A stretch of 64,000 nucleotides of DNA from Aureimonas fodinaquatilis (lineage in GTDB: Bacteria > Pseudomonadota > Alphaproteobacteria > Rhizobiales > Rhizobiaceae). Below, piece by piece: positions 38,878-64,000 of the stretch (within the stretch, counting starts at the first letter, position 1; each line of letters begins with the position of its first letter). The translations under genes and the position numbers were made by a program. The notes beneath the pieces are model-generated. The model did no database searches. It saw only the letters and a program-made list of their open reading frames with translations, and had not been told where the DNA came from. The stretch is from assembly GCF_008369445.1 (NCBI RefSeq), contig NZ_VTWH01000004.1:124001-188000 (forward strand), written 5' to 3'.

Positions 38878-39624
38878 ATGAGGAATTCAAACGCACGGGC
38901 TGAAAGCGAAGTCGTTATGTTGCGGGAAATCTGCAATGTATGTGCTCGTTGCGAAATCCGATCTCTGGCAATCTGTGCAGCTTTGCAGGAAAACGAGGTT
39001 GCCGCGCTGGAAAGCATCATGACCTCGCGCGAGTTGGCGCCAGAAGAAACGCTGCTGCATGAGGGTGACAAGCGTCGGCGTGTATACAGCCTGACATCCG
39101 GAATGTTGCGCCTTTCCACCATTCTGTTTGATGGGCGCAGACAAATCACCGGTTTTCTAATGCCGGGTGACTATCTCGGCCTGGCCGACGAAGAAGTTTA
39201 CACCACTAATGTCGAGGCGGTTGCGCCATCTGTTCTTTGCAGTTTCTCTGTGCAGGACATGGACAATCTGATGCAGCGCTTTCCCAAGCTGAAAGAGCGG
39301 CTTTACCTGTTTACACGGGCGGCTTTGCGGCAGGCCCGTGACGATCAGATCATGCTTGGCCGGCTTGCCCCGGTGGAAAAGCTCGCCAGTTTTCTCCTTC
39401 TGCTTTCGGCCCGGGCCAAGTCTCACCAGCAGCCAGACAACCCGGTGCCATTGCCCATGTCGCGCAGCGATATTGCAGATTATCTTGGCCTGACCATTGA
39501 AACCGTCAGCCGCAGTTTCACCAAACTGCGCACTCAGGGCTTGATCCGTCTCGAAGACGCACATCTAGTGGAAATTCTCGACAGACGGGCACTGGCTGCG
39601 GTGGCCGGCATCGAACGGCATTGA
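38878..39624 (+). CDS. fnr: FNR-type oxygen-responsive transcriptional regulator
   Basis: The 248-residue protein is a CRP/FNR regulator with an N-terminal cysteine cluster, Cys19, Cys22, Cys25 and Cys33 (ICNVCARC and AIC), plus central Cys121 (SVLCSFS). This suits an oxygen-labile [4Fe-4S] cluster as in FNR/FnrN. The cNMP-like effector domain spans about 40-150. The helix-turn-helix IADYLGLTIETVSRSFTKL contains the E-x2-SR recognition pattern that reads TTGAT half-sites. A perfect TTGATTGCAATCAA box overlaps its stop codon, upstream of hemN. It probably activates anaerobic or microaerobic genes, including its neighbour. Confidence 0.93.
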   Translation: MRNSNARAESEVVMLREICNVCARCEIRSLAICAALQENEVAALESIMTSRELAPEETLLHEGDKRRRVYSLTSGMLRLSTILFDGRRQITGFLMPGDYLGLADEEVYTTNVEAVAPSVLCSFSVQDMDNLMQRFPKLKERLYLFTRAALRQARDDQIMLGRLAPVEKLASFLLLLSARAKSHQQPDNPVPLPMSRSDIADYLGLTIETVSRSFTKLRTQGLIRLEDAHLVEILDRRALAAVAGIERH

Positions 39625-53341: not shown

Positions 53342-54613
53342 ATGGATATGAGATTGAGTGAAGACCGCGGAAAGCCGCGCATAGCCGTTATTGTCAAAGG
53401 CTATCCGCGCTTGTCGGAAACCTTTATTGCGCAGGAAATCCTGGGGCTGGAACAGGCAGGTTTCACGCTGGAAATCTGGTCGCTCCGCCACCCGACAGAC
53501 AGCGCAAAACACCCGCTGAACCACCAGATACAGGCAGCGGTAAACTATCTGCCGGAATATTTGTATCAGGCACCTTTGCGCGTGGCGAAAGGGCTTTTTG
53601 CTGCAATGAGGCGACCGGGCTTTGGCCGGTTCTGCGCATTGGCGTGGCGCGACCTGCGCCGTGACCCGACGCCAAACCGCATGCGACGCATCGGGCAGGC
53701 ACTGGTGCTTGCGCGCGAACTGAACCCGCAGATTGCGCAGCTCTATGTGCATTTTCTGCACACACCAGCATCCGTGGCTCGCTATGCCGCAATTTTGCGC
53801 GGCAACCGCTTCGGCTTTTCCGCTCATGCCAAAGATATCTGGACAACGCAGGACTGGGAAAAGCGGGAAAAAATTGCCGATGCAGCGTGGGGTGTCACGT
53901 GCACGCGGCAAGGTTATGACGAATTGCGCCGCCTCACTCCGCCGGATGCACCGGACCGGATCAGGCTGGTCTATCATGGTCTGGATTTGTCGCGGTTTCC
54001 CGAACCTCCGGTTCGTGCGACTTCAACGGATGGCAATCAGCCGAAAAGTCCGGTGCGAATTGTCACCGTTGGCCGAATGGTGGCCAAAAAGGGCTTCTCA
54101 GATTTGTTGCAGGCTCTGGCAATGCTGCCGGAACATCTTGCATGGCAGATGGTTCACATCGGTTCGGGAGAGTTGAAGCAAAGCCTGCAGCAGGAGGCCG
54201 AAGCGCTGGGTCTTTCAGACCGGGTGGAATGGCGTGGAGCAATGGCGCAAAGCGGAGTTATCGCCGCACTGCGAGACGCGGATATTTTTGCTCTGGCATG
54301 CCGGGAGGGCGACGGTGGTGACCGCGACGGCCTGCCCAATGTGTTGATGGAAGCCGCCACTCAGGAACTTGCGCTGCTATCAACCGCTTATGCTGGTGTG
54401 CCCGAACTGATCAATGATGGGGAGAACGGCCTTCTGGTTTCCCCTGCCGACCCGGCAGCATTTGCTCTGGCGCTGGAAAGGCTGATCCGCAACCCTGCGC
54501 TGCGGCGCAGCCTTGGCCAGAACGCCCATGCCCGCGTGCGAAATGACTTCGAGTTTCAGTCCGGCATCACCACGATTTCCGCCCTGTTGCAAATGCAGGG
54601 CGTCAGGCCTTGA
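53342..54613 (+). CDS. Family 4 glycosyltransferase
   Basis: The 423-residue GT-B enzyme starts 3 bp after the MurG-like gene. The N-terminal domain has KGYPRLSETFIAQEILGLE, typical of exopolysaccharide GT4 enzymes. The donor domain has VGRMVAKKGFSDLLQAL (about 240-256), and GLPNVLMEAATQELALLST carries the catalytic E-x7-E-like region (about 328-346). It probably adds a hexose during assembly of a surface glycan on the cytoplasmic side. Its last 11 bp overlap, in the opposite direction, the end of the UDP-sugar dehydrogenase gene. Confidence 0.87.
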   Translation: MDMRLSEDRGKPRIAVIVKGYPRLSETFIAQEILGLEQAGFTLEIWSLRHPTDSAKHPLNHQIQAAVNYLPEYLYQAPLRVAKGLFAAMRRPGFGRFCALAWRDLRRDPTPNRMRRIGQALVLARELNPQIAQLYVHFLHTPASVARYAAILRGNRFGFSAHAKDIWTTQDWEKREKIADAAWGVTCTRQGYDELRRLTPPDAPDRIRLVYHGLDLSRFPEPPVRATSTDGNQPKSPVRIVTVGRMVAKKGFSDLLQALAMLPEHLAWQMVHIGSGELKQSLQQEAEALGLSDRVEWRGAMAQSGVIAALRDADIFALACREGDGGDRDGLPNVLMEAATQELALLSTAYAGVPELINDGENGLLVSPADPAAFALALERLIRNPALRRSLGQNAHARVRNDFEFQSGITTISALLQMQGVRP

Positions 54614-55925
54614 TGACCCGGCTGGTATCCGTGCCAAGACGTTCAAACACATTGCGCGTGTCCACGCCCAGCCGCATGGCACTGGCAATGGTGGCGTAGT
54701 CCACATCAGCGTGATCCGTGGCAACAAGCACCGCATCATAGCTTGCAACGGTCTGTGCGGTGATGGTTACGGATTGGCGGCCAGCAAGGGCCTTGTGCTC
54801 GCGAGTTACCGGAATTGTCGGCACATGCGGGTCGTGGTAATCCACTTGCGCGCCGCGTTGCTCCATTATATCCATCAGGCGCAGTGACGCGCTCTCCCGC
54901 GTATCCTCGACATTCCGCTTATAGGCTACACCAAGCAGCAGAATGCGGGCACCGTTCAGCCCGCGTTGAAAGCGTGCGTCCAATGCCAGTGCCAACACCT
55001 CGACAACGTGGGCGGGCATGGCTGTGTTGATCTCACCTGCCAGTTCAATAAACCGCGTGGCAATGTCATATTCCCGCGCTTTCCACGACAGGTAAAACGG
55101 ATCAATCGGAATGCAATGTCCGCCAAGCCCCGGGCCGGGGTAGAATGGCATGTACCCAAATGGCTTTGATTTGGCCGCCTCGATCACCTCCCAGATATCA
55201 ATGCCCATTGCGCCGTAAATCAGCTTCAACTCATTCACCAGGGCAATATTGACGGAGCGGAAAATATTCTCGGTCAGCTTTACGGCCTCTGCCACCGAAG
55301 GGCTCGAAACCGGCACGGTGCTTTGCATGGCTGCGGCGTAAAGCGCATTGGCCAATGTCAAAGCATCGACACCATCGCCGCCAACGACTTTGGGAATATC
55401 ACGGGTGGTAAAGGCGGCATTGCCCGGATCTTCCCGCTCGGGCGAAAATGCCAGGAAAAACTCCTTGCCACTGGCCTCCAGCATCGGCTTGACCACCTCA
55501 AGCGTGGTACCGGGCCATGTGGTGGATTCCAGAACCACCATCTGTCCTTCACGCAAGTGCGCGGCAATCTGGCTGGTGGCCAGCCGCATGAAGGATAGGT
55601 CAGGGTCGCGCTGCGGTGTCAGTGGCGTGGGCACACAGATCAAAATAGCATCCGGCTCCCCCAGCCGGTCAAAATCAACCGTGGCTTCAAAACGCCCTTG
55701 CTCCAGCGCCTGCGCAATCGCGTCAGCGGGAATGTGGCTTATGCCCGTTTGCCCCGCATTCAACAGCGCCACGCGGTTGACATCAATGTCAAAGCCAAGC
55801 ACGGGAAAACCGGCGCGGCACATAACAAGAGCCAGCGGCAGGCCGACATAGCCAAGGCCGATAATGCCAATGCGGGCGGTTCTGTTTTCAATTTTGTCGA
55901 GCAGGCTTTCAGCGGCAGGTGTCAT
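54603..55925 (-). CDS. UDP-N-acetyl-hexosamine dehydrogenase (WbpA/TviB-type)
   Basis: The 440-residue enzyme has the N-terminal NAD-binding GLGYVGLPLA motif, a CVPTPLTPQRDPDLS segment and the catalytic-cysteine motif PGPGLGGHCIPIDPFYL (Cys near 269). That latter form is diagnostic for the WbpA/TviB/Wbpo group acting on UDP-HexNAc, rather than the UDP-glucose dehydrogenase form. It oxidises C6 to a carboxylate, giving an acidic amino sugar. It ends a leftward transcript (GT4, GT28-deacetylase, dehydrogenase) with gaps of a few bases, so the glycan probably contains a uronic acid. Confidence 0.9.
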   Translation of the reverse strand: MTPAAESLLDKIENRTARIGIIGLGYVGLPLALVMCRAGFPVLGFDIDVNRVALLNAGQTGISHIPADAIAQALEQGRFEATVDFDRLGEPDAILICVPTPLTPQRDPDLSFMRLATSQIAAHLREGQMVVLESTTWPGTTLEVVKPMLEASGKEFFLAFSPEREDPGNAAFTTRDIPKVVGGDGVDALTLANALYAAAMQSTVPVSSPSVAEAVKLTENIFRSVNIALVNELKLIYGAMGIDIWEVIEAAKSKPFGYMPFYPGPGLGGHCIPIDPFYLSWKAREYDIATRFIELAGEINTAMPAHVVEVLALALDARFQRGLNGARILLLGVAYKRNVEDTRESASLRLMDIMEQRGAQVDYHDPHVPTIPVTREHKALAGRQSVTITAQTVASYDAVLVATDHADVDYATIASAMRLGVDTRNVFERLGTDTSRVIKA

Positions 55926-55927
55926 GC

Positions 55928-57823
55928 TTACCCTTTGACCTCACCCTCATCCGCGGCAAATAGCAGTGTCGGGGCAGTAAATTCAACTGCAGGATGCAGT
56001 ACCATAAGCCGAAGCAACTGCTCGACAAATCTCCAGGTGGCGCCATCCTGCACCAGATGGTGCGTCAGCAGGCCCAGCGGTTCAGACCCGGCCTCCTCAA
56101 TCAGCCTGTCGATCAAGGCACCTACCGGCACCAGCCCACCGCCATGCTTCCAGTCAATCGGGTCGCAATGGGTGTTGACGACGGCAAGCCCGTGCATGCG
56201 CGCAGCCTTGCGCGGTTTAAACACCGAAAGCCCGGTGAAACCAGCGTCGGACAGATGCGGCAGCAGGTTGGGGTCAATTCGGTTCCATGGCGGCACCAGC
56301 ACCGAAAGCGCCTGGGCGCCGAAACGCTGCATATGGTCGGCAAGGCCCTGTTGCAGCGCGGCCAGCAACATTGGCTGCGGCTGCCAGCCGAGTTCCTGCT
56401 TGCGCTCGCCCGCAGGTGCGTGGTTGCGGTGGTCCAGCCCGTGCATCAGCACGCAAACATTCTTCTGTTCACGCAGGGCGGAAACCAAGCCGTCCTTTAC
56501 CAGCCTTGGGCTGGCGGCAATGGCAAGCGGCACGCCCAGTTTTTCACGCAGGTTCAGCATGCGGTGCAACTGCGCTGTGTCATCCGCCGCATCATCATCG
56601 CGCCACCAGAAGCGCAGGCTTTGTCCCTTTCCAGCCATTGCGTCAAGATGCTTCGACAAGCGGGCGAATGCTGCAGCATGCGCCTGAGCCAATGCCCCAC
56701 CCGCCTCAATCACGCCAATGCTCCGTTCAATGCCGTTCAGGCTCAGGCTGGACAAGCGTGGCGGCAGGGCAATGGCCTCATCCACTGCCGCCAGCAGACC
56801 CTCGGCCGTCAACTCTTCACCCTTCAGCATCACGGCCACACCCGCCTTGGCAGCGCCTTGCGCCCGCAGCGTCTGTTCTTCTTCGCCCTGTGCCGCGAAT
56901 GGCACCAGAATGGCAGGCACTTTGCTCACGGCCAGATCAAGCATGGTGTTGTAACCGGCCTGGCTGATGGAAGCCGCCGCACCTGCCAGAAGCTGCCGAA
57001 AATCCGGTCGGGCGCGTTCAACCACCACCCCGGCACCGGCTTTCGCAACAAGGGTGGCAAATTGCGCTTCCGGCACCGTGTCGCCAATTAAAATTCGCCA
57101 GCCGCGAACATCATCGCTTGCACCTGCGGCGATGGCGGCCTCAAACAACGGCAGCCCTGCAACTCCGCCGCCGCCGGAAACCACAACCTCATTCGTTGGC
57201 ACCGGGCTCGTTTCGCATGCCGCGGCACGGTTGATATAGCCCGTATAGCGCAACAACCCGGCAAGTTTTTCACCGACCGGCCACGAAAGCTGCAAGGGCG
57301 TTGTCAGCTCATCGCCATGCACCAGCACGCCATCATAAAATTCATCCAGCAGCCTGTCTGCACGTTCGGCCTTTTCCGGGCGCGACGGCGGGTTCAGAAT
57401 GTCACGCACCGAAGCCAGAATGGCAGGCGGATTCTGACGGTTCTTTGCCACCTGCAACAGGCTGTGGAACTCCTGTGCCAATTGCCTTCGACCAAACGGA
57501 AAGGTCTCGGTTATCAAAACATCCGGTTGAAACCGTTCAAATTCAGCAAGAACTGTTTGTTGCCGTCGCAACAGATAATCCGGGGTTACCAACTGGTTTT
57601 CCGCATCATACAGACGTGTAAAATCTGCGTCGATGCAGTGCACCGGAAGAAGCTGGACGAACTCAACCTTCGCGCCAGGCATCACGGTGGGCGCCGCGCG
57701 CCCGCCACTGGCCACCAGAACAGAATGTCCGGCTGCAGCCAGCCCATCTGCCAGCGCAGCCATGCGGGCCAGATGGCCAACGCCAAGCAGATGAGTCACC
57801 GCTATAAAAACCCGCAAACTCAC
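55928..57823 (-). CDS. Fusion of MurG-like glycosyltransferase and polysaccharide-deacetylase-like domain
   Basis: The GTG start at 57823 overlaps the upstream GT4 stop and has AGGAGG just before it; the product is 631 residues. Residues 1-370 form a GT-B transferase (N-terminal LLGVGHLARMAAL; donor site VVSGGGGVAGLPLFEAA near 217 and AGYNTMLDLAVSKVPAIL). Residues about 400-631 resemble a NodB/CE4-type fold: FWWRDDDAADDT with acidic residues (near 406-411), HGLDHRNH with two metal-type histidines (near 459), and VPPWNRIDP. The deacetylase motifs are plausible but divergent, so activity is uncertain. The fusion would couple sugar transfer and modification. It is the middle gene of the leftward cluster. 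Confidence 0.78.
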   Translation of the reverse strand: MSLRVFIAVTHLLGVGHLARMAALADGLAAAGHSVLVASGGRAAPTVMPGAKVEFVQLLPVHCIDADFTRLYDAENQLVTPDYLLRRQQTVLAEFERFQPDVLITETFPFGRRQLAQEFHSLLQVAKNRQNPPAILASVRDILNPPSRPEKAERADRLLDEFYDGVLVHGDELTTPLQLSWPVGEKLAGLLRYTGYINRAAACETSPVPTNEVVVSGGGGVAGLPLFEAAIAAGASDDVRGWRILIGDTVPEAQFATLVAKAGAGVVVERARPDFRQLLAGAAASISQAGYNTMLDLAVSKVPAILVPFAAQGEEEQTLRAQGAAKAGVAVMLKGEELTAEGLLAAVDEAIALPPRLSSLSLNGIERSIGVIEAGGALAQAHAAAFARLSKHLDAMAGKGQSLRFWWRDDDAADDTAQLHRMLNLREKLGVPLAIAASPRLVKDGLVSALREQKNVCVLMHGLDHRNHAPAGERKQELGWQPQPMLLAALQQGLADHMQRFGAQALSVLVPPWNRIDPNLLPHLSDAGFTGLSVFKPRKAARMHGLAVVNTHCDPIDWKHGGGLVPVGALIDRLIEEAGSEPLGLLTHHLVQDGATWRFVEQLLRLMVLHPAVEFTAPTLLFAADEGEVKG

Positions 57824-58935
57824 GCCTCCTGTTCAGCCAGCAGCCCGGCAATCTGTAGTTCCAGCCTATGTGCCGCGGCTGGCAGCGAGTGGTGCTGCAA
57901 CACTTTTTCGCGGGCATTGATGCCGAGCCTGTGCCGCAATTCTGCATCGCCCAGCAGCAGAGCCAGATTCTGCCGATAGGCGGCAACATCGCCCACTGGC
58001 GAAAGCATGCCGGAAATTCCGTTCTCCACCACCTCGGCGACACCGCCATAAGCCCCGGCAACTGCAGGCAGGCCACAGGCCGCAGCTTCCAGATATGCCA
58101 TTCCAAAGGCCTCATTCACGCCGGGCCAAGCAAGCACATCCGCCTGAGCATAAAGTTGCGCCAGCCGCGAACGATCGGTGATTTTGCCGTGAAACCGAAT
58201 TCGGCTTTCAAAGGGTTCAAACTGCGCATGCACTTCGGCCTGCGCCGCGCCATCGCCAACAATGTCCAGCAGCCAGTCGCCATCCAGCCCCCGCAATGCT
58301 TCGGCCAGCATGGCATAAGATGCCAGCTTGTCACCGGGCCGCATCATGCCAACGGCCAGCAACCGCATCTGGTTGTTGGCTTGCGATGCTGTTTTCTGTG
58401 GCCATTCATCCGGGGCAAGAAATGGCGGCAGATGCAAAAATCTGCTTGCACCGACTTTTTGCAAACCGGCAATGTCGCCCCGGTTCAGCACTATATGCAG
58501 ATTCGCTGATCGTGATGCTTGCGCCGAGCGGGCGGCAAATCGCGCCCATGGCCCGCTCATTCGCTTTTCTGCGTGGGATGCTTCCACCAGCACATATGGG
58601 ATTCCCCATGCCTGGGACATGGCAGGCCCAAGCAGGTCCGGCGCCTTGTAGTAATTGTGATACGTCACCCATGCAGCCGGCCTGCAGGGCAGTGCGGTTT
58701 GCAAGCGCTGCACATCGGCTTCCGCTGCGGCCTCGATGATTGCCTCATCAACCGCATTGCCTTTGGCATCAAGACTGGTGAATGTGGATACCACTTGTGC
58801 ACCAAAACGGGTTTGGCTCAATGCTCGCAACAGCATGCGTGCAACTTCCCTGTCGCCGGACGGGATGGCGTGACCGGGATGCTTGAGCGGCGCATAAAAA
58901 GCTATTGGCCGGGAAGAGGATGTCAAAATGCGCAT
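57820..58935 (-). CDS. Family 4 glycosyltransferase
   Basis: Start at ATG 58935 gives 371 residues (MRILTSSSRPIAFYAPLKHP); the frame is open for 45 more codons upstream, and the ribosome site here is weak. The GT-B donor domain has MRLLAVGMMRPGDKL (about 190) and the NEAFGMAYLEAAACGLPAVA motif (about 290), with the conserved E-x7-E arrangement of GT4 (EAFGMAYLE). It is the first gene of the leftward operon and is divergent from the ABC-like operon, with 147 bp between the starts, so a shared promoter region is likely. Confidence 0.85.
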   Translation of the reverse strand: MRILTSSSRPIAFYAPLKHPGHAIPSGDREVARMLLRALSQTRFGAQVVSTFTSLDAKGNAVDEAIIEAAAEADVQRLQTALPCRPAAWVTYHNYYKAPDLLGPAMSQAWGIPYVLVEASHAEKRMSGPWARFAARSAQASRSANLHIVLNRGDIAGLQKVGASRFLHLPPFLAPDEWPQKTASQANNQMRLLAVGMMRPGDKLASYAMLAEALRGLDGDWLLDIVGDGAAQAEVHAQFEPFESRIRFHGKITDRSRLAQLYAQADVLAWPGVNEAFGMAYLEAAACGLPAVAGAYGGVAEVVENGISGMLSPVGDVAAYRQNLALLLGDAELRHRLGINAREKVLQHHSLPAAAHRLELQIAGLLAEQEA

Positions 58936-59082
58936 TTTATCAGGATGTCGAATCCGTTGCCGTGCAAAACCGCCTGTTCCCCGATATAGCAATTCCAGCA
59001 TTGCGACAAAATCGATATCCGGACGCAAAATCGCTATAGATTGATTTAAAAGCTTCGAAAGCGCCACCAACCGGACTGCCTA

Positions 59083-61809
59083 ATGCGCCCATCCTTATAC
59101 CGCTATGTCTGGGATCATACCCGCCGCCAGCAGATCTGGATGCTGGTGATCGTCGTGCTTTCAACCATCCCGCTGTATTTTTCGCTCAACCTGCCCAAAC
59201 TCATCATCAATGGACCAATTCAAGGCGGCGGCTTTGAAGAGGGCGTGGGCGACACCGATGTTTTCTTTCGCATAGCCCTGCCCGGCATGAACGCCGACGC
59301 CTCCGAGCGTATTCTGTTTCCCGGTTTGGAAATGGAGCGGTTGCAGGCGCTGTTTGTGCTTTCGATGCTGTTTCTCACGCTGGTGGTTATCAACGGCGCG
59401 TTTAAATTCTACCTCAATATCTACAAGGGCCGACTGGGCGAGCGCATGCTGCGGCGCATGCGCTATGAACTGGTTGATAAAATTCTGCGCTTTCCGATGC
59501 GGCGTTTTCGCCGGGTCAGACCGGCGGAAATCGCAAGCATGATCAAGGATGAGCTGGAGCCGGTCGGCGGCTTCATTGGCGATGCCTTTATTCAGCCGGT
59601 TTATCTGGGCAGCCAGATTTTAACGGCAATGGTGTTCATTTTTCTCCAGAGCATCACTCTGGGCTTTGTGGCGCTGGCCGTCATGCTTGTTCAGGTTGCC
59701 GTTATTCCGCGCATGCGCCGACGGCTGTTGGTGCTGGGGCGTGAACGCCAGCTTGCAGCCCGCAAACTGGCCGGCAGCGTCGGCGAAATCATCGAGAGCA
59801 TGCCGGCCATACGCACGAATGACGGATCGAATTATATTCGCGCCCGCATGTCGGATGATCTGGGAAAAATCTTCCTCATCCGGTTCGACATTTACCAGTG
59901 GAAGTTCTTTGTAAAATTTCTCAACAATTTTCTGTCGCAGGCCACACCGTTCATTTTCTACATGTTTGGTGGTTATTTCGCGGTGACCGGGCAGTTGAAT
60001 ATTGGCGAGCTGGTGGCGGTGATTGCTGCTTACCGTGAACTTCCTGGCCCGCTGAAAGACCTGATTGACTGGGATTTGATGCGGCTGGACGTCAATGTCA
60101 AATATGAGCAGGTGGCCGAGCAGTTTGATGTGGAAGGGCTGGTTGAAACCACGCGGCAGGCGCCAATGCAAGGCAGCGCATTGCCACTTTCCGGCGAGTT
60201 TCGGCTGGAAGGTGTCACCGTCCGCGATGAGTCCGGCATCAACCTCATCCACAATCTGGATCTGGATCTGCCCTTGCAGCAATTGGTCGCCGCCATTGGT
60301 CCGGTGGGCGACGGCGCAGAAACCGTGGCAGAGATCCTGTCGTCGCTTTCCGCCCCGGCAGAAGGCAGCGTAACACTTGGCGGGCAACGGCTGGCCTCCA
60401 TTCCCGAATCCGTTCTTGGCAGGCGCATCGCCTTTGTCGACACCACCACCTATTTCCCGCAATCGACATTGCGGCAGGCTTTGCTGTTCCCGCTCATGCA
60501 TCAATTGGAAACGGCCAGCCCGCCACCGGCAACAAAGCGTGAAAAGCTGGCCCGGCATGAATCTGCCGCATCCGGCAACAGTCTGGATGATCCGGCTGGC
60601 GACTGGGTTGATCATTCAGCCATTGGCATAACATCAGAAGATCGGCTGAGTGCCATCAACAGCGTGTTGCAGATTGTGCAACTGGGGCGAGACATTCGGC
60701 GCATTGGCCTTGCTGCCCGCCTGCCCGAGCAATTGGCTGAACAGGCCCATGACAAGGTTTTGCGCGCGCGGGGTGATTTCTGGCACATGCTGCGCCAATC
60801 GGGGCTGGAAAGCACGGTCGAGCGGTTCGACACGAATGCATATCTGACCAATGCCAGCATTCTGGAGAACATCGTCTTTGGCGCCTCCCGGCATGATGAA
60901 AGCGCGGCCACAATGGCGCTTGTGCGCGGCGATGCGCGCCGTGTGCTGTTCCAGACAGGGCTGGACCGGCCCTTGCTGGATATGGGGCGCAAAATTGCAG
61001 AAACATTGGTTGAACTGTTTGGCGATATGGGGCAGTCCAGCCCGCTTCTGCGGCGTATCAGCCTGATCCAGCCAGAGGAAATCGACTCCTATCGGCAGAT
61101 ATTGGGCAGGCTTGAGGGAAGGCCCACGGCAGAAGCCACAAATGATGACAAGTTTCAGCTCGCACGGCTGGCATTGCGTTACATTGAACCGCAGCACCGC
61201 ATGGGCCTGATTGATGCCGATCTGCAGGAGCAGATTGTAACTGCCCGTCAGCTTTTCCGGACGCAGGCATCCCCAAAAGTACGGGACGAAATTGTGTTTT
61301 ATGATGAAGCCGCCTTCAACCCCGCGGCCTCGATCAAGGACAACATCATTTTTGGCCGCATGGCCAAAACGACAACCGGTGCCACAGAAGCGGTTGAAAC
61401 CCATATGGCAGATGCTATTGCCCGCAACAGCCTGGATATGATGGTGCTGGATGCCGCACTGGAATTTGACATCGGCTCTGGTGCCAAGCGGCTTTCCGTC
61501 AGCCAGCAGCAAAGGCTTGCACTGGCCCGCGCACTTTTGAAACAGCCCGATTATCTGATTGCCAATCGCTGCCTGTCAGCGCTGGATTCCGGCGTGCAGA
61601 AAATCGTTCTGGACGCCACATTGCTGCGTGCACGGCTGGGCGAACGTCCATTCGGCATTTACTGGGTTCTCGGCACACCATCACTTGCAACTGCGTTTGA
61701 CCGCAGCCTGCAATTCAAGGGCGGTCAAATTGTCGAAGATACCGGTCTTGCGAGCGAGCCACAAACCGGCCTATCTTCTGAAGAAGCTCTTCCCGGAGCC
61801 GCGCAATGA
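59083..61809 (+). CDS. ABC-exporter-like membrane protein with degenerate nucleotide-binding domain
   Basis: The 908-residue protein begins with an ABC-type transmembrane domain of about six helices (first at 18-36, last near 305-320). The nucleotide-binding domain is abnormal. At the Walker A place (406-414) it has GPVGDGAET, so the Lys is Ala412 and the Ser Glu413. Signature is LSVSQ (804-808) instead of LSGGQ. Walker B is YLIANRC (824-830), with Asn and Arg where Asp and Glu belong. The switch His place has GTPS. A roughly 330-residue insertion lies between the Q-loop (FPQSTLRQALLF, 458-469) and signature and carries two further Q-loop-like segments, ASILENIVFG (591-600) and ASIKDNIIFG (749-758). 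It should not hydrolyse ATP normally; a sensor, scaffold or regulator role is inference. The next gene begins 18 bp downstream. Confidence 0.85.
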   Translation: MRPSLYRYVWDHTRRQQIWMLVIVVLSTIPLYFSLNLPKLIINGPIQGGGFEEGVGDTDVFFRIALPGMNADASERILFPGLEMERLQALFVLSMLFLTLVVINGAFKFYLNIYKGRLGERMLRRMRYELVDKILRFPMRRFRRVRPAEIASMIKDELEPVGGFIGDAFIQPVYLGSQILTAMVFIFLQSITLGFVALAVMLVQVAVIPRMRRRLLVLGRERQLAARKLAGSVGEIIESMPAIRTNDGSNYIRARMSDDLGKIFLIRFDIYQWKFFVKFLNNFLSQATPFIFYMFGGYFAVTGQLNIGELVAVIAAYRELPGPLKDLIDWDLMRLDVNVKYEQVAEQFDVEGLVETTRQAPMQGSALPLSGEFRLEGVTVRDESGINLIHNLDLDLPLQQLVAAIGPVGDGAETVAEILSSLSAPAEGSVTLGGQRLASIPESVLGRRIAFVDTTTYFPQSTLRQALLFPLMHQLETASPPPATKREKLARHESAASGNSLDDPAGDWVDHSAIGITSEDRLSAINSVLQIVQLGRDIRRIGLAARLPEQLAEQAHDKVLRARGDFWHMLRQSGLESTVERFDTNAYLTNASILENIVFGASRHDESAATMALVRGDARRVLFQTGLDRPLLDMGRKIAETLVELFGDMGQSSPLLRRISLIQPEEIDSYRQILGRLEGRPTAEATNDDKFQLARLALRYIEPQHRMGLIDADLQEQIVTARQLFRTQASPKVRDEIVFYDEAAFNPAASIKDNIIFGRMAKTTTGATEAVETHMADAIARNSLDMMVLDAALEFDIGSGAKRLSVSQQQRLALARALLKQPDYLIANRCLSALDSGVQKIVLDATLLRARLGERPFGIYWVLGTPSLATAFDRSLQFKGGQIVEDTGLASEPQTGLSSEEALPGAAQ

Positions 61810-61827
61810 CCAAAGGCCAGAAAAGCC

Positions 61828-62295
61828 ATGAGCCTGTTGAGCAATGAAGTCGAAGTGCTTCGCCGCAGTCCGTTGTTTCAGGGCATCGAGCCCGCACGCC
61901 TGAAACTGATTGCTTTCACTTCTGAAACCGCCCTGTTTGCACCGGGTGATGTGTTGTTTCGACAGGGAGAAATGGGCGACAGCGCCTATGTCATTCTGTC
62001 TGGAGAAGTGGCGGTTCTGGCACAATCTCCTGTGGGCGAAATCGAGCTTGCCCGGCTGGGTGAGCAGGAAATTGTCGGCGAAATCGGCATTCTGTGCGAT
62101 GTGCCGCGCACTGCCACGGTGCGGGCGTGCGGCGAGGTGAAAACCCTGCGCATTGGCAAGGAATGCCTGTCTGAAATGCTGGATGCCTTTCCAACCATGG
62201 CACAGGCCATGTTGCGCGAACTTGCGTTTCGCCTGAGTCACACGTCCTCAGAGCTGGTGCAGCTTCGCACGGAAGCAGCGGGAGAAAAGCACTGA
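61828..62295 (+). CDS. Stand-alone cyclic-nucleotide-binding domain protein
   Basis: The 155-residue protein is almost only one CNB (CRP-type) domain: the beta-barrel with LFRQGEMGDSAYVILSGEV, and a phosphate-binding cassette EIVGEIGILCDVPRTATVRA (about 88-107) with the Glu and Arg that contact cyclic nucleotide phosphate and ribose. No helix-turn-helix or other output domain follows, so it is not a classical transcription factor; output may be by protein contact, for example with the ABC-like protein. It starts 18 bp after the ABC-like gene and 14 bp before the MBL gene. Confidence 0.87.
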   Translation: MSLLSNEVEVLRRSPLFQGIEPARLKLIAFTSETALFAPGDVLFRQGEMGDSAYVILSGEVAVLAQSPVGEIELARLGEQEIVGEIGILCDVPRTATVRACGEVKTLRIGKECLSEMLDAFPTMAQAMLRELAFRLSHTSSELVQLRTEAAGEKH

Positions 62296-62309
62296 CGGAA
62301 GCTGACGCC

Positions 62310-63158
62310 ATGACGCGGCTGACGATTTATGGCGCGCGTGGCTCCATACCCTCCGCACCGGACGACCCATCAGAATTTGGCGCACGAACATCCTGTGTCA
62401 GTCTTGAAATTTCCGGGCAGTTGCTGGTCTTTGATGCCGGCTCCGGCCTTGTCGATCTTGGACGCAAATTGTTGCAGGGCCCGCATCGGCAGATTTTAAT
62501 GTTTTTGTCGCACGCGCATTACGACCACATCATTGGTCTGCCCTATTTTGCACCTTTGTATGACCCTGCATTTGAAGTCACCATTCATGCCGGGCATATG
62601 CTGGACGGTTCCACATGCGAAACTGTGATCCGGGACTTTCTGCGCCCGCCATTTCACCCGGTCGGGGTTGAAGCGTTTCGGGCAAAGTTGAACTTTGTCA
62701 CATTTCGCCCGGGCGATCTTCTAACGGCTGGTCCGCAGGTCAGCATTGCCACCCACCGGCTGAACCACCCGAACGGCGCGGTTGGCTACCGGGTTTCCAG
62801 TGCAAGCCAGTCCATTTGCTATGTGACAGATCATGAGCACAAGCCGGGAAATACCGATCCGGCACTGGAAGATTTTGTCCGCAATGCCGATCTGATGGTC
62901 TATGACACCAATTATACAGAAGCAGATATGACCCCTTATGCCGGCTATGGCCATTCTTCACCACAAGAGGCAATTCGCCTGTGCCAGGCTGCCAATGTCG
63001 GCAGACTTGTTCTCTTCCACCACTCATTCAAACATTCTGATGAACAACTGCGCGCCATCGAGGCGGAAGCGCAGAAGGCGTTCAGAAACACCGTTTCCGC
63101 ACGCGCCGGCATGGTGTTGACGCTGCCCGGGGCGGACTTGCCGGCTGGTGCCACATGA
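62310..63158 (+). CDS. Metallo-beta-lactamase-fold hydrolase
   Basis: The 282-residue protein has the MBL active-site motif SHAHYDH (HxHxDH; about residues 69-75), a later metal-site His in THRLNHPNGAVGY, an Asp in CYVTDHEHKPG and C-terminal HHSFKHSD. The N-terminal GARGSIPS and SCVSLEISG resemble the phosphodiesterase/RNase Z-like branch rather than lactamases. It may act on a phosphodiester; because the next gene is a nucleotide cyclase (ATGA overlap), cyclic-nucleotide phosphodiesterase activity is attractive but unproven. It has no signal peptide, so it is cytoplasmic. Confidence 0.87.
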   Translation: MTRLTIYGARGSIPSAPDDPSEFGARTSCVSLEISGQLLVFDAGSGLVDLGRKLLQGPHRQILMFLSHAHYDHIIGLPYFAPLYDPAFEVTIHAGHMLDGSTCETVIRDFLRPPFHPVGVEAFRAKLNFVTFRPGDLLTAGPQVSIATHRLNHPNGAVGYRVSSASQSICYVTDHEHKPGNTDPALEDFVRNADLMVYDTNYTEADMTPYAGYGHSSPQEAIRLCQAANVGRLVLFHHSFKHSDEQLRAIEAEAQKAFRNTVSARAGMVLTLPGADLPAGAT

Positions 63159-64000
63159 CGGGCAATCGCTATCTGCTTTTTGCGCTGAGTGATTGGCTGA
63201 CGGGTGCTGCCCTGCGTGAGGAAAAGCTGGAGCTTGTTCTGGCCGAGCTTGCAGAAAGGTTGCGCGCCCATGGAGTTCCGGTGGACAGGTGCCGCCTGAC
63301 CTGGCCCACGTTGCACCCGCTGTTTGAAGCAGAAACCATGTTATGGACGTCAACGGATGGCGTTTCCACCCAGCGCTTTGACCGGCAGGTTCACGATCAT
63401 GAAGGCTGGTTGCGCAGCACAATCAAATGGATGCTGGACAATGAACAGTCATCCTTGCGTGCGCGTCTGACACAGGCCGATCTGGAGCCGACATTTCCGC
63501 TTTATGATGAGATGCGGGACGAGGGTTACACAGACATGCTGGCCCTGCGCACACAGATTTTCTCAACTGACTCACCTTTCCGACAGGATGGTGGCGATTT
63601 TGGAATTTATATTGCATGGAGCAGCAAGGCACCGGGCGGCTTCGACACCCACGCGATTGAACTGTTCAATCAGTTGCAGCCCTATGTTGCGTTGCTCAGC
63701 AAGCTCATTGTTTTCCCGCGGCTGATTTTCAGCGTTACCAACACTTATCTTGGACCGACAATCGCGCGTGAGGTGCTGGGCGGTCGAATTACCCTGGGCA
63801 GCGGCAGCCAGATCGAAGCGCTGGTCTGGTATTCAGATTTGCGAGATTCAACCGGGCTGGCTGAAAGCATGGGCAGCGAGCCTTATCTGGCTTTGCTGAA
63901 CGATTATTTCGACTGCACCGGCCGCGCGGTGGTGGAAGCCGGTGGTGAGATTCTGGCCTTTGTCGGCGATGCCGTCATGGCCATATTTCCGATTTCGGCC
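63155..64000 (+). CDS. Class III adenylate/guanylate cyclase (3' end outside window)
   Basis: The frame starts at ATG 63155, overlapping the MBL stop by ATGA, and stays open to the window end (282 codons). An N-terminal region of about 210 residues (MTGNRYLLFALSDWLTGAA onward) has no helix-rich membrane part and no family I recognise; it may be a regulatory domain. The class III cyclase domain then begins: LVWYSDLRDSTGLAE carries the first metal Asp and EILAFVGDAVMAIFPI the second (GDAVMA). It would make cAMP or cGMP; specificity residues lie beyond the window. It is the last visible gene of the operon. Confidence 0.88.
   Translation, partial: MTGNRYLLFALSDWLTGAALREEKLELVLAELAERLRAHGVPVDRCRLTWPTLHPLFEAETMLWTSTDGVSTQRFDRQVHDHEGWLRSTIKWMLDNEQSSLRARLTQADLEPTFPLYDEMRDEGYTDMLALRTQIFSTDSPFRQDGGDFGIYIAWSSKAPGGFDTHAIELFNQLQPYVALLSKLIVFPRLIFSVTNTYLGPTIAREVLGGRITLGSGSQIEALVWYSDLRDSTGLAESMGSEPYLALLNDYFDCTGRAVVEAGGEILAFVGDAVMAIFPISA

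Follow-up and report, generated by a model that had tools for sequence, protein, structure and literature searches.

A conserved pair of an ABC-exporter-fold pseudo-ATPase and a cyclic-nucleotide-binding protein in an apparently undescribed module beside surface-glycan genes of Aureimonas fodinaquatilis

At the end of a 64,000-nucleotide stretch of the 3.93-Mb genome of Aureimonas fodinaquatilis (genome G000, contig C4, positions 124001-188000; "the window" below) lie four co-oriented genes whose products are an ATP-binding cassette (ABC) exporter-like protein with a degenerate ATPase site, a single-domain cyclic-nucleotide-binding (CNB) protein, a metallo-beta-lactamase (MBL)-fold hydrolase and a class III nucleotidyl cyclase. 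The ABC-exporter-fold pseudo-ATPase and the CNB protein make up the core pair, which looks new, and the module as a whole is real and widespread and, as far as we have found, undescribed. The organisms that carry the ABC protein include many soil and plant-associated bacteria; in them the pairing with a CNB protein is almost constant, and genes for surface sugars are often nearby. We give an even chance to the reading that the module is a dedicated cyclic nucleoside monophosphate (cNMP) circuit acting on a surface-polysaccharide pathway, with the pseudo-ABC protein as its receptor or output. The findings suggest a transporter-like protein and a surface coat under the control of a small signal molecule instead of ATP.

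Results

The four open reading frames (ORFs) match, in gene order, the Pfam families ABC_membrane and ABC_tran, cNMP_binding, Lactamase_B_2 and Guanylate_cyc. Coordinates here are window positions on the plus strand unless marked otherwise. The pseudo-ABC protein (59083..61809, 908 aa), which combines the membrane domain of a type IV exporter with a degenerate nucleotide-binding domain (by Pfam, AlphaFold2 and Foldseek), is followed by the CNB protein (61828..62295, 155 aa), for which cNMP_binding is the sole Pfam match, then by the MBL-fold hydrolase (62310..63158, 282 aa) and finally by the cyclase P0001 (63155..64000), which is truncated by the window edge and is 407 aa long in the genome. 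A sequence-only reading had described these four genes, in this order and with gaps of 18, 14 and -4 bp, and the ORF coordinates agree with it exactly.

The pairing of the ABC and CNB proteins is the firmest feature of the module. Among 126 loci retrieved via the ABC protein (some genomes entered twice through two collections, e.g., as L036 and L057), a CNB match in the same orientation lies no more than 400 bp 3' of the ABC match, either as a separate gene or fused, at 122. Four loci lack it: L061, which breaks off within the ABC match, and L170-L172, which match in the membrane domain only; these last three were judged non-members, were nevertheless scored as misses in the 126 and were removed for the counts over 123 loci given below. 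The 80 named loci are the best 80 of 548 stretches at a tblastn E<=1e-3, a threshold that ordinary ABC exporters may also pass. In a set of 61 genomes (our own and 60 relatives, with cut-offs that we chose), the CNB stretch directly follows the ABC match in all 26 other ABC-bearing genomes, at L055 in the same frame. Fusions into a single protein are found at L055, L160-L164 and L167-L169 (checked with Pfam for L160 and L167). The CNB protein itself (P0003) matches PF00027, carries the Gly-Glu...Arg phosphate-binding cassette (GEIGILCDVPRTAT, 62077..62118) and matches the CNB domain of the channel SthK. Across an alignment of 112 sequences the Gly and the Arg of the cassette are invariant (112/112 each) and the Glu is kept in 106, with Asp in the other 6.

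Positions 39028-39279 of the window encode a second CNB domain, in a frame of 253 aa. The genome has five such domains in all, and this protein is possibly a second receptor for the same messenger. At L167 (4154-5883), the fused ABC-CNB gene comes after genes for an MBL protein of the Apyc1 family and for an ion-channel protein (PF00520), and L168 and L169 have genes similar in size and order. At L160 (3276-6313), an exporter-like ABC protein of 576 aa and a protein of 389 aa are encoded just upstream of the fused gene, and the former is a possible transport partner in that lineage.

The description of the ABC protein as degenerate, also made from the sequence alone, holds well beyond the window: ATPase positions are degraded in all 120 homologues examined. 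The window protein has the domain order (ABC_membrane, then the nucleotide-binding domain) and fold of a type IV exporter and lacks the motif set of an ATP-driven ABC transporter (Walker A Lys, Walker B Asp-Glu, LSGGQ, Q-loop and H-loop). Its Walker A, Q-loop, Walker B and H-loop positions are all altered, with GPVGDGAE at Walker A (residues 406-413, 60298..60321) where GxxGxGKS/T is expected and LIANR at Walker B where hhhDE is expected; a stretch at 61492..61587 holds the signature remnant LSVSQ, the eroded Walker B and a retained D-loop, SALD. At the Walker A Lys position (Ala412 in the window protein), the lysine has been lost in 113 of the 120 homologues, the residues being Lys in 7, Ala in 59, Gly in 31, Arg in 12, Ser in 6, Thr in 4 and Val in 1. 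The Walker B Asp has become Asn in 106/120 and the catalytic Glu has become Arg in 89/120. None of the seven Lys-bearing homologues keeps the full set: L167-L169 retain the Lys and the Asp-Glu pair, with MSQTL or VSQTL in the place of the signature and no His in the H-loop, and L176-L179 have the Walker A Lys with the Walker B Asp replaced by Asn. In a 61-row ABC tree (quick method, arbitrary root), the Lys-bearing rows fall outside the 44-row group that contains the window protein, and the seven fused rows form one fork with support 89.

These substitutions are themselves conserved across the homologues, and five close pairs give values of 0.03-0.21 for dN/dS (the ratio of nonsynonymous to synonymous substitution rates) in the pseudo-domain, a sign of purifying selection; the pseudo-ABC protein therefore does not look like a decaying pseudogene. 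While its ATPase site has decayed, the active-site residues of the CNB protein, the hydrolase and the cyclase are conserved. The nucleotide-binding domain also carries an insertion of about 247 aa (residues 470-716, 60490..61230), which measures 220-279 aa in 118 of the 120 aligned rows and 300-329 aa in the remaining two. The insertion contains two extra copies of the segment that bears the Q-loop. The Q-loop-like segments are copy A (residues 452-471, 60436..60495), copy B (residues 582-601, 60826..60885) and copy C (residues 740-759, 61300..61359), which profile comparison matched with probabilities of 96.7% (B-C), 94.9% (A-C) and 87.8% (A-B), the E-values being those of single comparisons. 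An AlphaFold2 model of the protein (mean pLDDT 83.9, pTM 0.78) found exporters of the ABCB/TmrAB type with Foldseek, TmrAB and P-glycoprotein among them; TM-scores for TmrAB are 0.5-0.6 by target length and low by query length.

The sequence-only reading had linked all four genes into one cassette, proposing co-occurrence across genomes as the test, and in the 61 genomes the families do keep company. The ABC protein is present in 27 (E<=1e-60), a P0001-like cyclase in 27 (E<=1e-30; 26 shared with ABC), the MBL protein in 25 (E<=1e-20; 24 shared) and a neighbouring GT28-deacetylase glycosyltransferase in 26 (E<=1e-40; 25 shared), this last scored in G031 and G045 via its second domain only, with G031 among the 25. 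Over the 40 other genera, taken as one genome each, the co-occurrence with ABC gives Fisher p values of 6e-9 for the cyclase, 6e-7 for the MBL protein and 7e-8 for the GT28-deacetylase. Across the 61 genomes the four are almost always present or absent together. Within our own genus (G000-G020, n=21), 11 genomes have ABC, cyclase, MBL and glycosyltransferase, and the other 10 have none of them at these cut-offs, an all-or-none pattern from which loss or transfer of the whole cluster seems frequent. The link to glycan genes also holds in five genomes (G021, G024, G030, G042 and G054) in which the glycosyltransferase is present on another contig, and a cluster glycosyltransferase is found at 91 of the 123 loci.

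Physical linkage is conserved in other genomes as well, including, in the window's own family, that of the cyclase. Leaving our genome aside, a P0001-like cyclase lies about 11.5 kb or closer to the ABC gene in 10 of the 11 same-family genomes of a phylum-wide set, where it is each genome's best match to P0001; in the eleventh (G103, in 1890 contigs) the best match is on another contig. Of the 398 genomes in that set, 27 have the ABC protein (E<=1e-80), all of them in the window's class, and a single gammaproteobacterial record, Plasticicumulans, appears among the best 80 of the 548 stretches. The ABC protein is also found in 262 plasmid records at E<=1e-60, and replicons of Sinorhizobium meliloti and Rhizobium leguminosarum carry it.

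P0001 belongs to the class III nucleotidyl cyclases (PF00211, 25.3 bits against a cut-off of 21.9, with N353 and R357 in place) and is the sole match to PF00211 in a search of the whole genome at E<=0.001. Its N-terminal domain looks GAF-like, by eye, in the model. Over 52 aligned cyclase rows the two metal-binding Asp residues are found in 52 and 50 (2 gaps), the Asn in 39 and the Arg in 33 (Lys in 13). The rows fall into two types, those like P0001 (at least 27% identical to it) and a second type, several of which appear by eye to be membrane-anchored. In adenylate cyclases a Lys working with Asp, Thr or Ser selects ATP; P0001 does not follow this rule, as the position is Ala268 in the alignment (window 63947-63976). 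The ATP-specifying Lys is absent from 28 of the 29 P0001-like rows (Ala 16, Ser 8, Asp 3, Glu 1; one of the 28 is an interrupted frame of S. meliloti Rm1021, discussed below), and the sole bearer is L052, included here at 33% identity, with Lys-Thr. Rows of the other type (n=23) have Lys in 21, Ser in 1 and a gap in 1. This pattern suggests that the P0001-like cyclases have an unusual base preference and, since the linked ones lack the ATP-specifying Lys, that the messenger may not be cyclic AMP (cAMP). Several related genomes encode many class III cyclases.

The hydrolase (P0004) is a possible atypical class II cNMP phosphodiesterase. It and its relatives belong to PF12706 (36/36 members), it carries the motif SHAHYDH, and the metal ligands are invariant in all 58 sequences checked; the motif [T/S]HxHxDH defines this class of phosphodiesterases (PMC9293780), although HxHxDH is common to RNase Z too. 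RNase Z models outscore the phosphodiesterase family model on P0004, and the NCBIfam equivalog for cNMP degradation (NF041851) gives it 47.2 of the 400 bits required. Its best match in the PDB is YhfI (6kns). The PF12706 fold and the metal motif are shared with Rv1339, YhfI and CpdA (PMC9293780) and with Apyc1 (PMC9117128). Unlike Apyc1, P0004 matches no Apyc1 Pfam model, and membership in that family was ruled out for the group (0/36 members match); the MBL protein beside the fused gene at L167 does match.

The genes on the other side of the pseudo-ABC gene belong to a glycan cluster. Divergent from it is a GT4 glycosyltransferase (57820..59070, minus strand), and beyond this lie a GT28-like glycosyltransferase fused to a second domain (55928..57823, minus strand), which co-occurs with the module, a UDP-glucose/GDP-mannose dehydrogenase (54603..55925, minus strand) and another GT4 glycosyltransferase (53342..54613, plus strand). 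The second domain of the fusion has no Pfam match; it resembles separate proteins (cluster c9) of other loci, and "deacetylase" is a name given by eye. Seven window proteins match a region of the S. meliloti megaplasmid pSymB at about 822.6-845 kb: the pseudo-ABC protein at 41% identity, CNB at 50%, MBL at 40%, the divergent GT4 at 37%, the GT28 part at 37% with the deacetylase-like domain at 39%, the dehydrogenase at 60% and the second GT4 at 53%. A cyclase of the same family as P0001 is present in that region too.

The S. meliloti record that we used carries no locus tags, and its genes were numbered by counting from nodP2 with the help of features named in PMC5498481. The anchors were the epimerases smb21228 and smb21232, the sulfotransferases smb21237, smb21243 and smb21249, and smb21240, smb21242 and smb21247; their order fits if one number is skipped, with products assigned by eye or from weak profile matches. 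By this count, not by locus tag, the homologue of the divergent GT4 (at 822655) is smb21252 and the cluster falls within smb21252-smb21271. We had also considered the capsule genes smb20804, smb20805 and smb20813 (with an msbA homologue). The region is flanked by a LacI-like regulator, a solute-binding protein and an adenine-deaminase-like protein (all named by eye), which do not fit the surroundings expected for those tags; that assignment was dropped and the region was placed by counting instead. The tags that we sought were not found in PMC7268258 or PMC5929573 (supplements not covered).

According to PMC10128002, nine genes between smb21252 and smb21271 are required for an uncharacterized surface polysaccharide, the phazolicin-protecting polysaccharide (PPP), and mutants in smb21252 and smb21265, both of which fall by count in the homologous cluster, are more sensitive to phazolicin. 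The same source reports that cAMP regulates genes possibly involved in PPP; in the passages covered of PMC5498481, the polysaccharide genes that respond to cAMP lie next to this interval, in nodP2-smb21248, and no smb2125x-2127x gene is named. Seven of the nine PPP genes are reported to be up-regulated under Myxococcus attack (PMC10315480). The glycosyltransferases, dehydrogenase, deacetylase-like protein, MBL protein, pseudo-ABC protein and CNB protein of the PPP cluster all have their match in the window, whereas the passages of PMC10128002 treat the cluster as biosynthetic and describe neither a cNMP module nor an ATPase-dead ABC protein. No description of the module itself was found in the open-access literature searched; for the surrounding cluster, a function is published in part.

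Discussion

The sequence-only reading took the four genes to be a self-contained second-messenger module that feeds a membrane pseudo-transporter and may gate polysaccharide synthesis or export, and we find this partly supported. The core of ABC and CNB stands, and the idea of a fixed four-gene unit does not: the positions of the MBL and cyclase genes vary, as does the kind of cyclase, and their linkage, common in the window's family, is absent from most of the farther loci examined.

The mechanism that we propose would begin with the cyclase, whose sensor-like N-terminal domain and class III catalytic domain would together set the production of a cyclic mononucleotide. The single-domain CNB protein would bind this molecule and, as the permanent partner of the pseudo-ATPase, would take over the role of ATP in shifting the conformation of the membrane protein; phosphodiesterase activity of the MBL-fold hydrolase would terminate the signal. 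The pseudo-ABC protein would then be a signal-operated membrane receptor or gate and not a pump. Its output would be either the synthesis of the glycan that the adjacent glycosyltransferases build (in S. meliloti, the PPP-type polysaccharide) or the translocation of that glycan. The sequences establish the gene set, its conserved linkage with the fusions, the co-occurrence, the decay of the ATPase residues beside intact cNMP-binding and catalytic residues, and the relatedness to the glycan cluster of S. meliloti; from these we infer cNMP binding, phosphodiesterase activity, a physical CNB-ABC complex and the gating of glycan production. A more specific version is rather doubtful. In it the CNB partner would drive a conformational change of an ATPase-dead ABC dimer, by which glycan translocation is switched on or a route for it is opened, and the messenger, private to the module, would be something other than cAMP, given the missing ATP-specifying Lys in the linked cyclases.

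Several findings weigh against a circuit dedicated to glycan output. Its enzymes are not tied to the core everywhere: no P0001-like cyclase is linked in any of the 15 farther genomes of the phylum set; a cyclase of the other type is found at the locus in 2 of the 13 farther genomes with loci fetched (G092 and G320); and among the 61 genomes a cyclase lies within 7 kb in 2 of the 8 from other families (G042 and G049). Of the 126 loci, many of which have flanks that are too short, 64 have an MBL gene and 51 a cyclase gene no more than 7 kb away. The wider families are less selective (PF00211 cyclases in 41/61 genomes, CNB relatives at E<=1e-15 in 39/61), so that the co-occurrence profile depends on the closer subfamilies. 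Among the nine loci with the fused form, L055 has a cluster glycosyltransferase nearby and the other eight have none. Finally, in the Rm1021 record (L138) the frames at NC_003078.1 ~828467-829774 (cyclase) and 841723-844378 (ABC) are interrupted by single-base differences, whereas strain 2011 (L139) has both intact, as open frames of 448 and 903 codons. The interruptions may be sequencing errors or a real strain difference; if they are real in the strain used for transposon sequencing (Tn-seq), PPP does not need the ABC protein and the cyclase.

As an alternative, the ABC-CNB pair could act by itself in the membrane, as a cNMP receptor or a channel-like protein with a function of its own; cyclase, hydrolase and glycan genes would then be neighbours recruited in Hyphomicrobiales and not an output that it requires. 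The pair is the sole near-universal part of the module, and at none of the nine fused-form loci, so poor in glycosyltransferases, is there a cyclase that matches the c7 profile. We consider this explanation unlikely on balance, though it deserves to be taken seriously: glycosyltransferase, cyclase and MBL track the ABC protein through the 61 genomes, the glycosyltransferase even from another contig, and L177-L179 keep the glycosyltransferase set without a linked cyclase.

The exporter fold invites another explanation: with a catalytic half encoded at another place, the pseudo-ABC protein could form a heterodimeric exporter in which it is the inactive half and which still transports under CNB control. 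Degenerate sites are common in heterodimeric ABC exporters, the near Foldseek matches include the heterodimeric TmrAB, and the 576-aa exporter-like protein at the fused-form locus L160 is encoded two genes upstream. The window protein is altered at Walker A, Q-loop, Walker B and H-loop alike, and the neighbouring ATPase (c10), both in the window genome and at the loci examined, is an oligopeptide-type protein with two nucleotide-binding domains and not an exporter half, which makes this improbable; a catalytic partner within the operon was dropped as a candidate on the same ground.

We see still less room for an anti-phage system of the Pycsar kind, in which the cyclase would make an alarm nucleotide and the CNB-membrane protein would kill the cell. 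PADLOC models of PycC match the cyclase (best 6e-17), TIR-effector CNB models match the CNB protein (1e-13), and the missing ATP-specifying Lys would fit; these matches fall on the catalytic and CNB domains held in common, the matches listed include no PycTM model, the neighbours are biosynthetic and conserved across genera, and the operon includes a phosphodiesterase-type hydrolase. A PycC with a PycTIR or PycTM effector in a defence locus was accordingly rejected as a classification. That four unrelated housekeeping genes lie together by chance, for which one could cite the 10 of 21 own-genus genomes without the module, can be set aside in view of the CNB adjacency, the all-or-none pattern and the fusions, and for ABC and CNB it is already refuted.

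Taken as a cNMP-operated receptor, the pseudo-ABC protein with its partner resembles several known systems in part. It has the membrane domain and overall fold of exporters of the MsbA/TmrAB/PCAT type and differs from them by its 247-aa extra segment, the two further Q-loop copies and the loss of the ATPase motifs. Cyclic-nucleotide-gated channels of the SthK type are CNB-controlled membrane proteins, as proposed here, but the window pair has an exporter fold and its CNB is usually a separate protein. HetC of Nostoc PCC 7120 combines an ABC exporter fold with a functionally required CNB-type domain; this domain is N-terminal (the window type is separate or C-terminal) and bound ppGpp, with cAMP without effect in a thermal assay (PMC10986499). 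HetC also carries a C39 peptidase and depends on its ATPase residue, whereas the window protein has no peptidase match and has lost its ATPase site.

If the proposed circuit is real, it would be, to our knowledge, the first case in which a cyclic nucleotide and not ATP operates an ABC-type protein, and rhizobia and their relatives would gain a cNMP-operated switch devoted to a protective surface polysaccharide. It would also bear on the identity of the messenger and on why several of these genomes carry so many class III cyclases. The presence of the ABC protein in S. meliloti and R. leguminosarum makes the question accessible in tractable organisms.

Neighbouring Genes

On the 3' side of the cyclase gene is a convergent oligopeptide-type permease/transporter operon. 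At L002 (6386-12381), such a convergent transporter consists of two permeases, a family 5 binding protein and an ATPase with two nucleotide-binding domains; a transporter of this type is in the same cluster at many loci and is co-directional with ABC-CNB in R. leguminosarum, where the run of strain WSM1325 comprises cyclase, oligopeptide-type ATPase, solute-binding protein, two permeases, three glycosyltransferases, ABC and CNB. A DUF3095 protein (PF11294) is encoded at 20 of the 123 loci, including L042 (11888-13051) and Mesorhizobium loci, and in S. meliloti its gene (L180, NC_003078.1 825490-826692) lies between those for the MBL protein and the dehydrogenase; it may be a further part of the nucleotide circuit. 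A polysaccharide lyase (PF14099), present at 7 of the 123 loci (e.g., L138, 3102-4070, and L042, 14436-15392), is a possible clue to the glycan.

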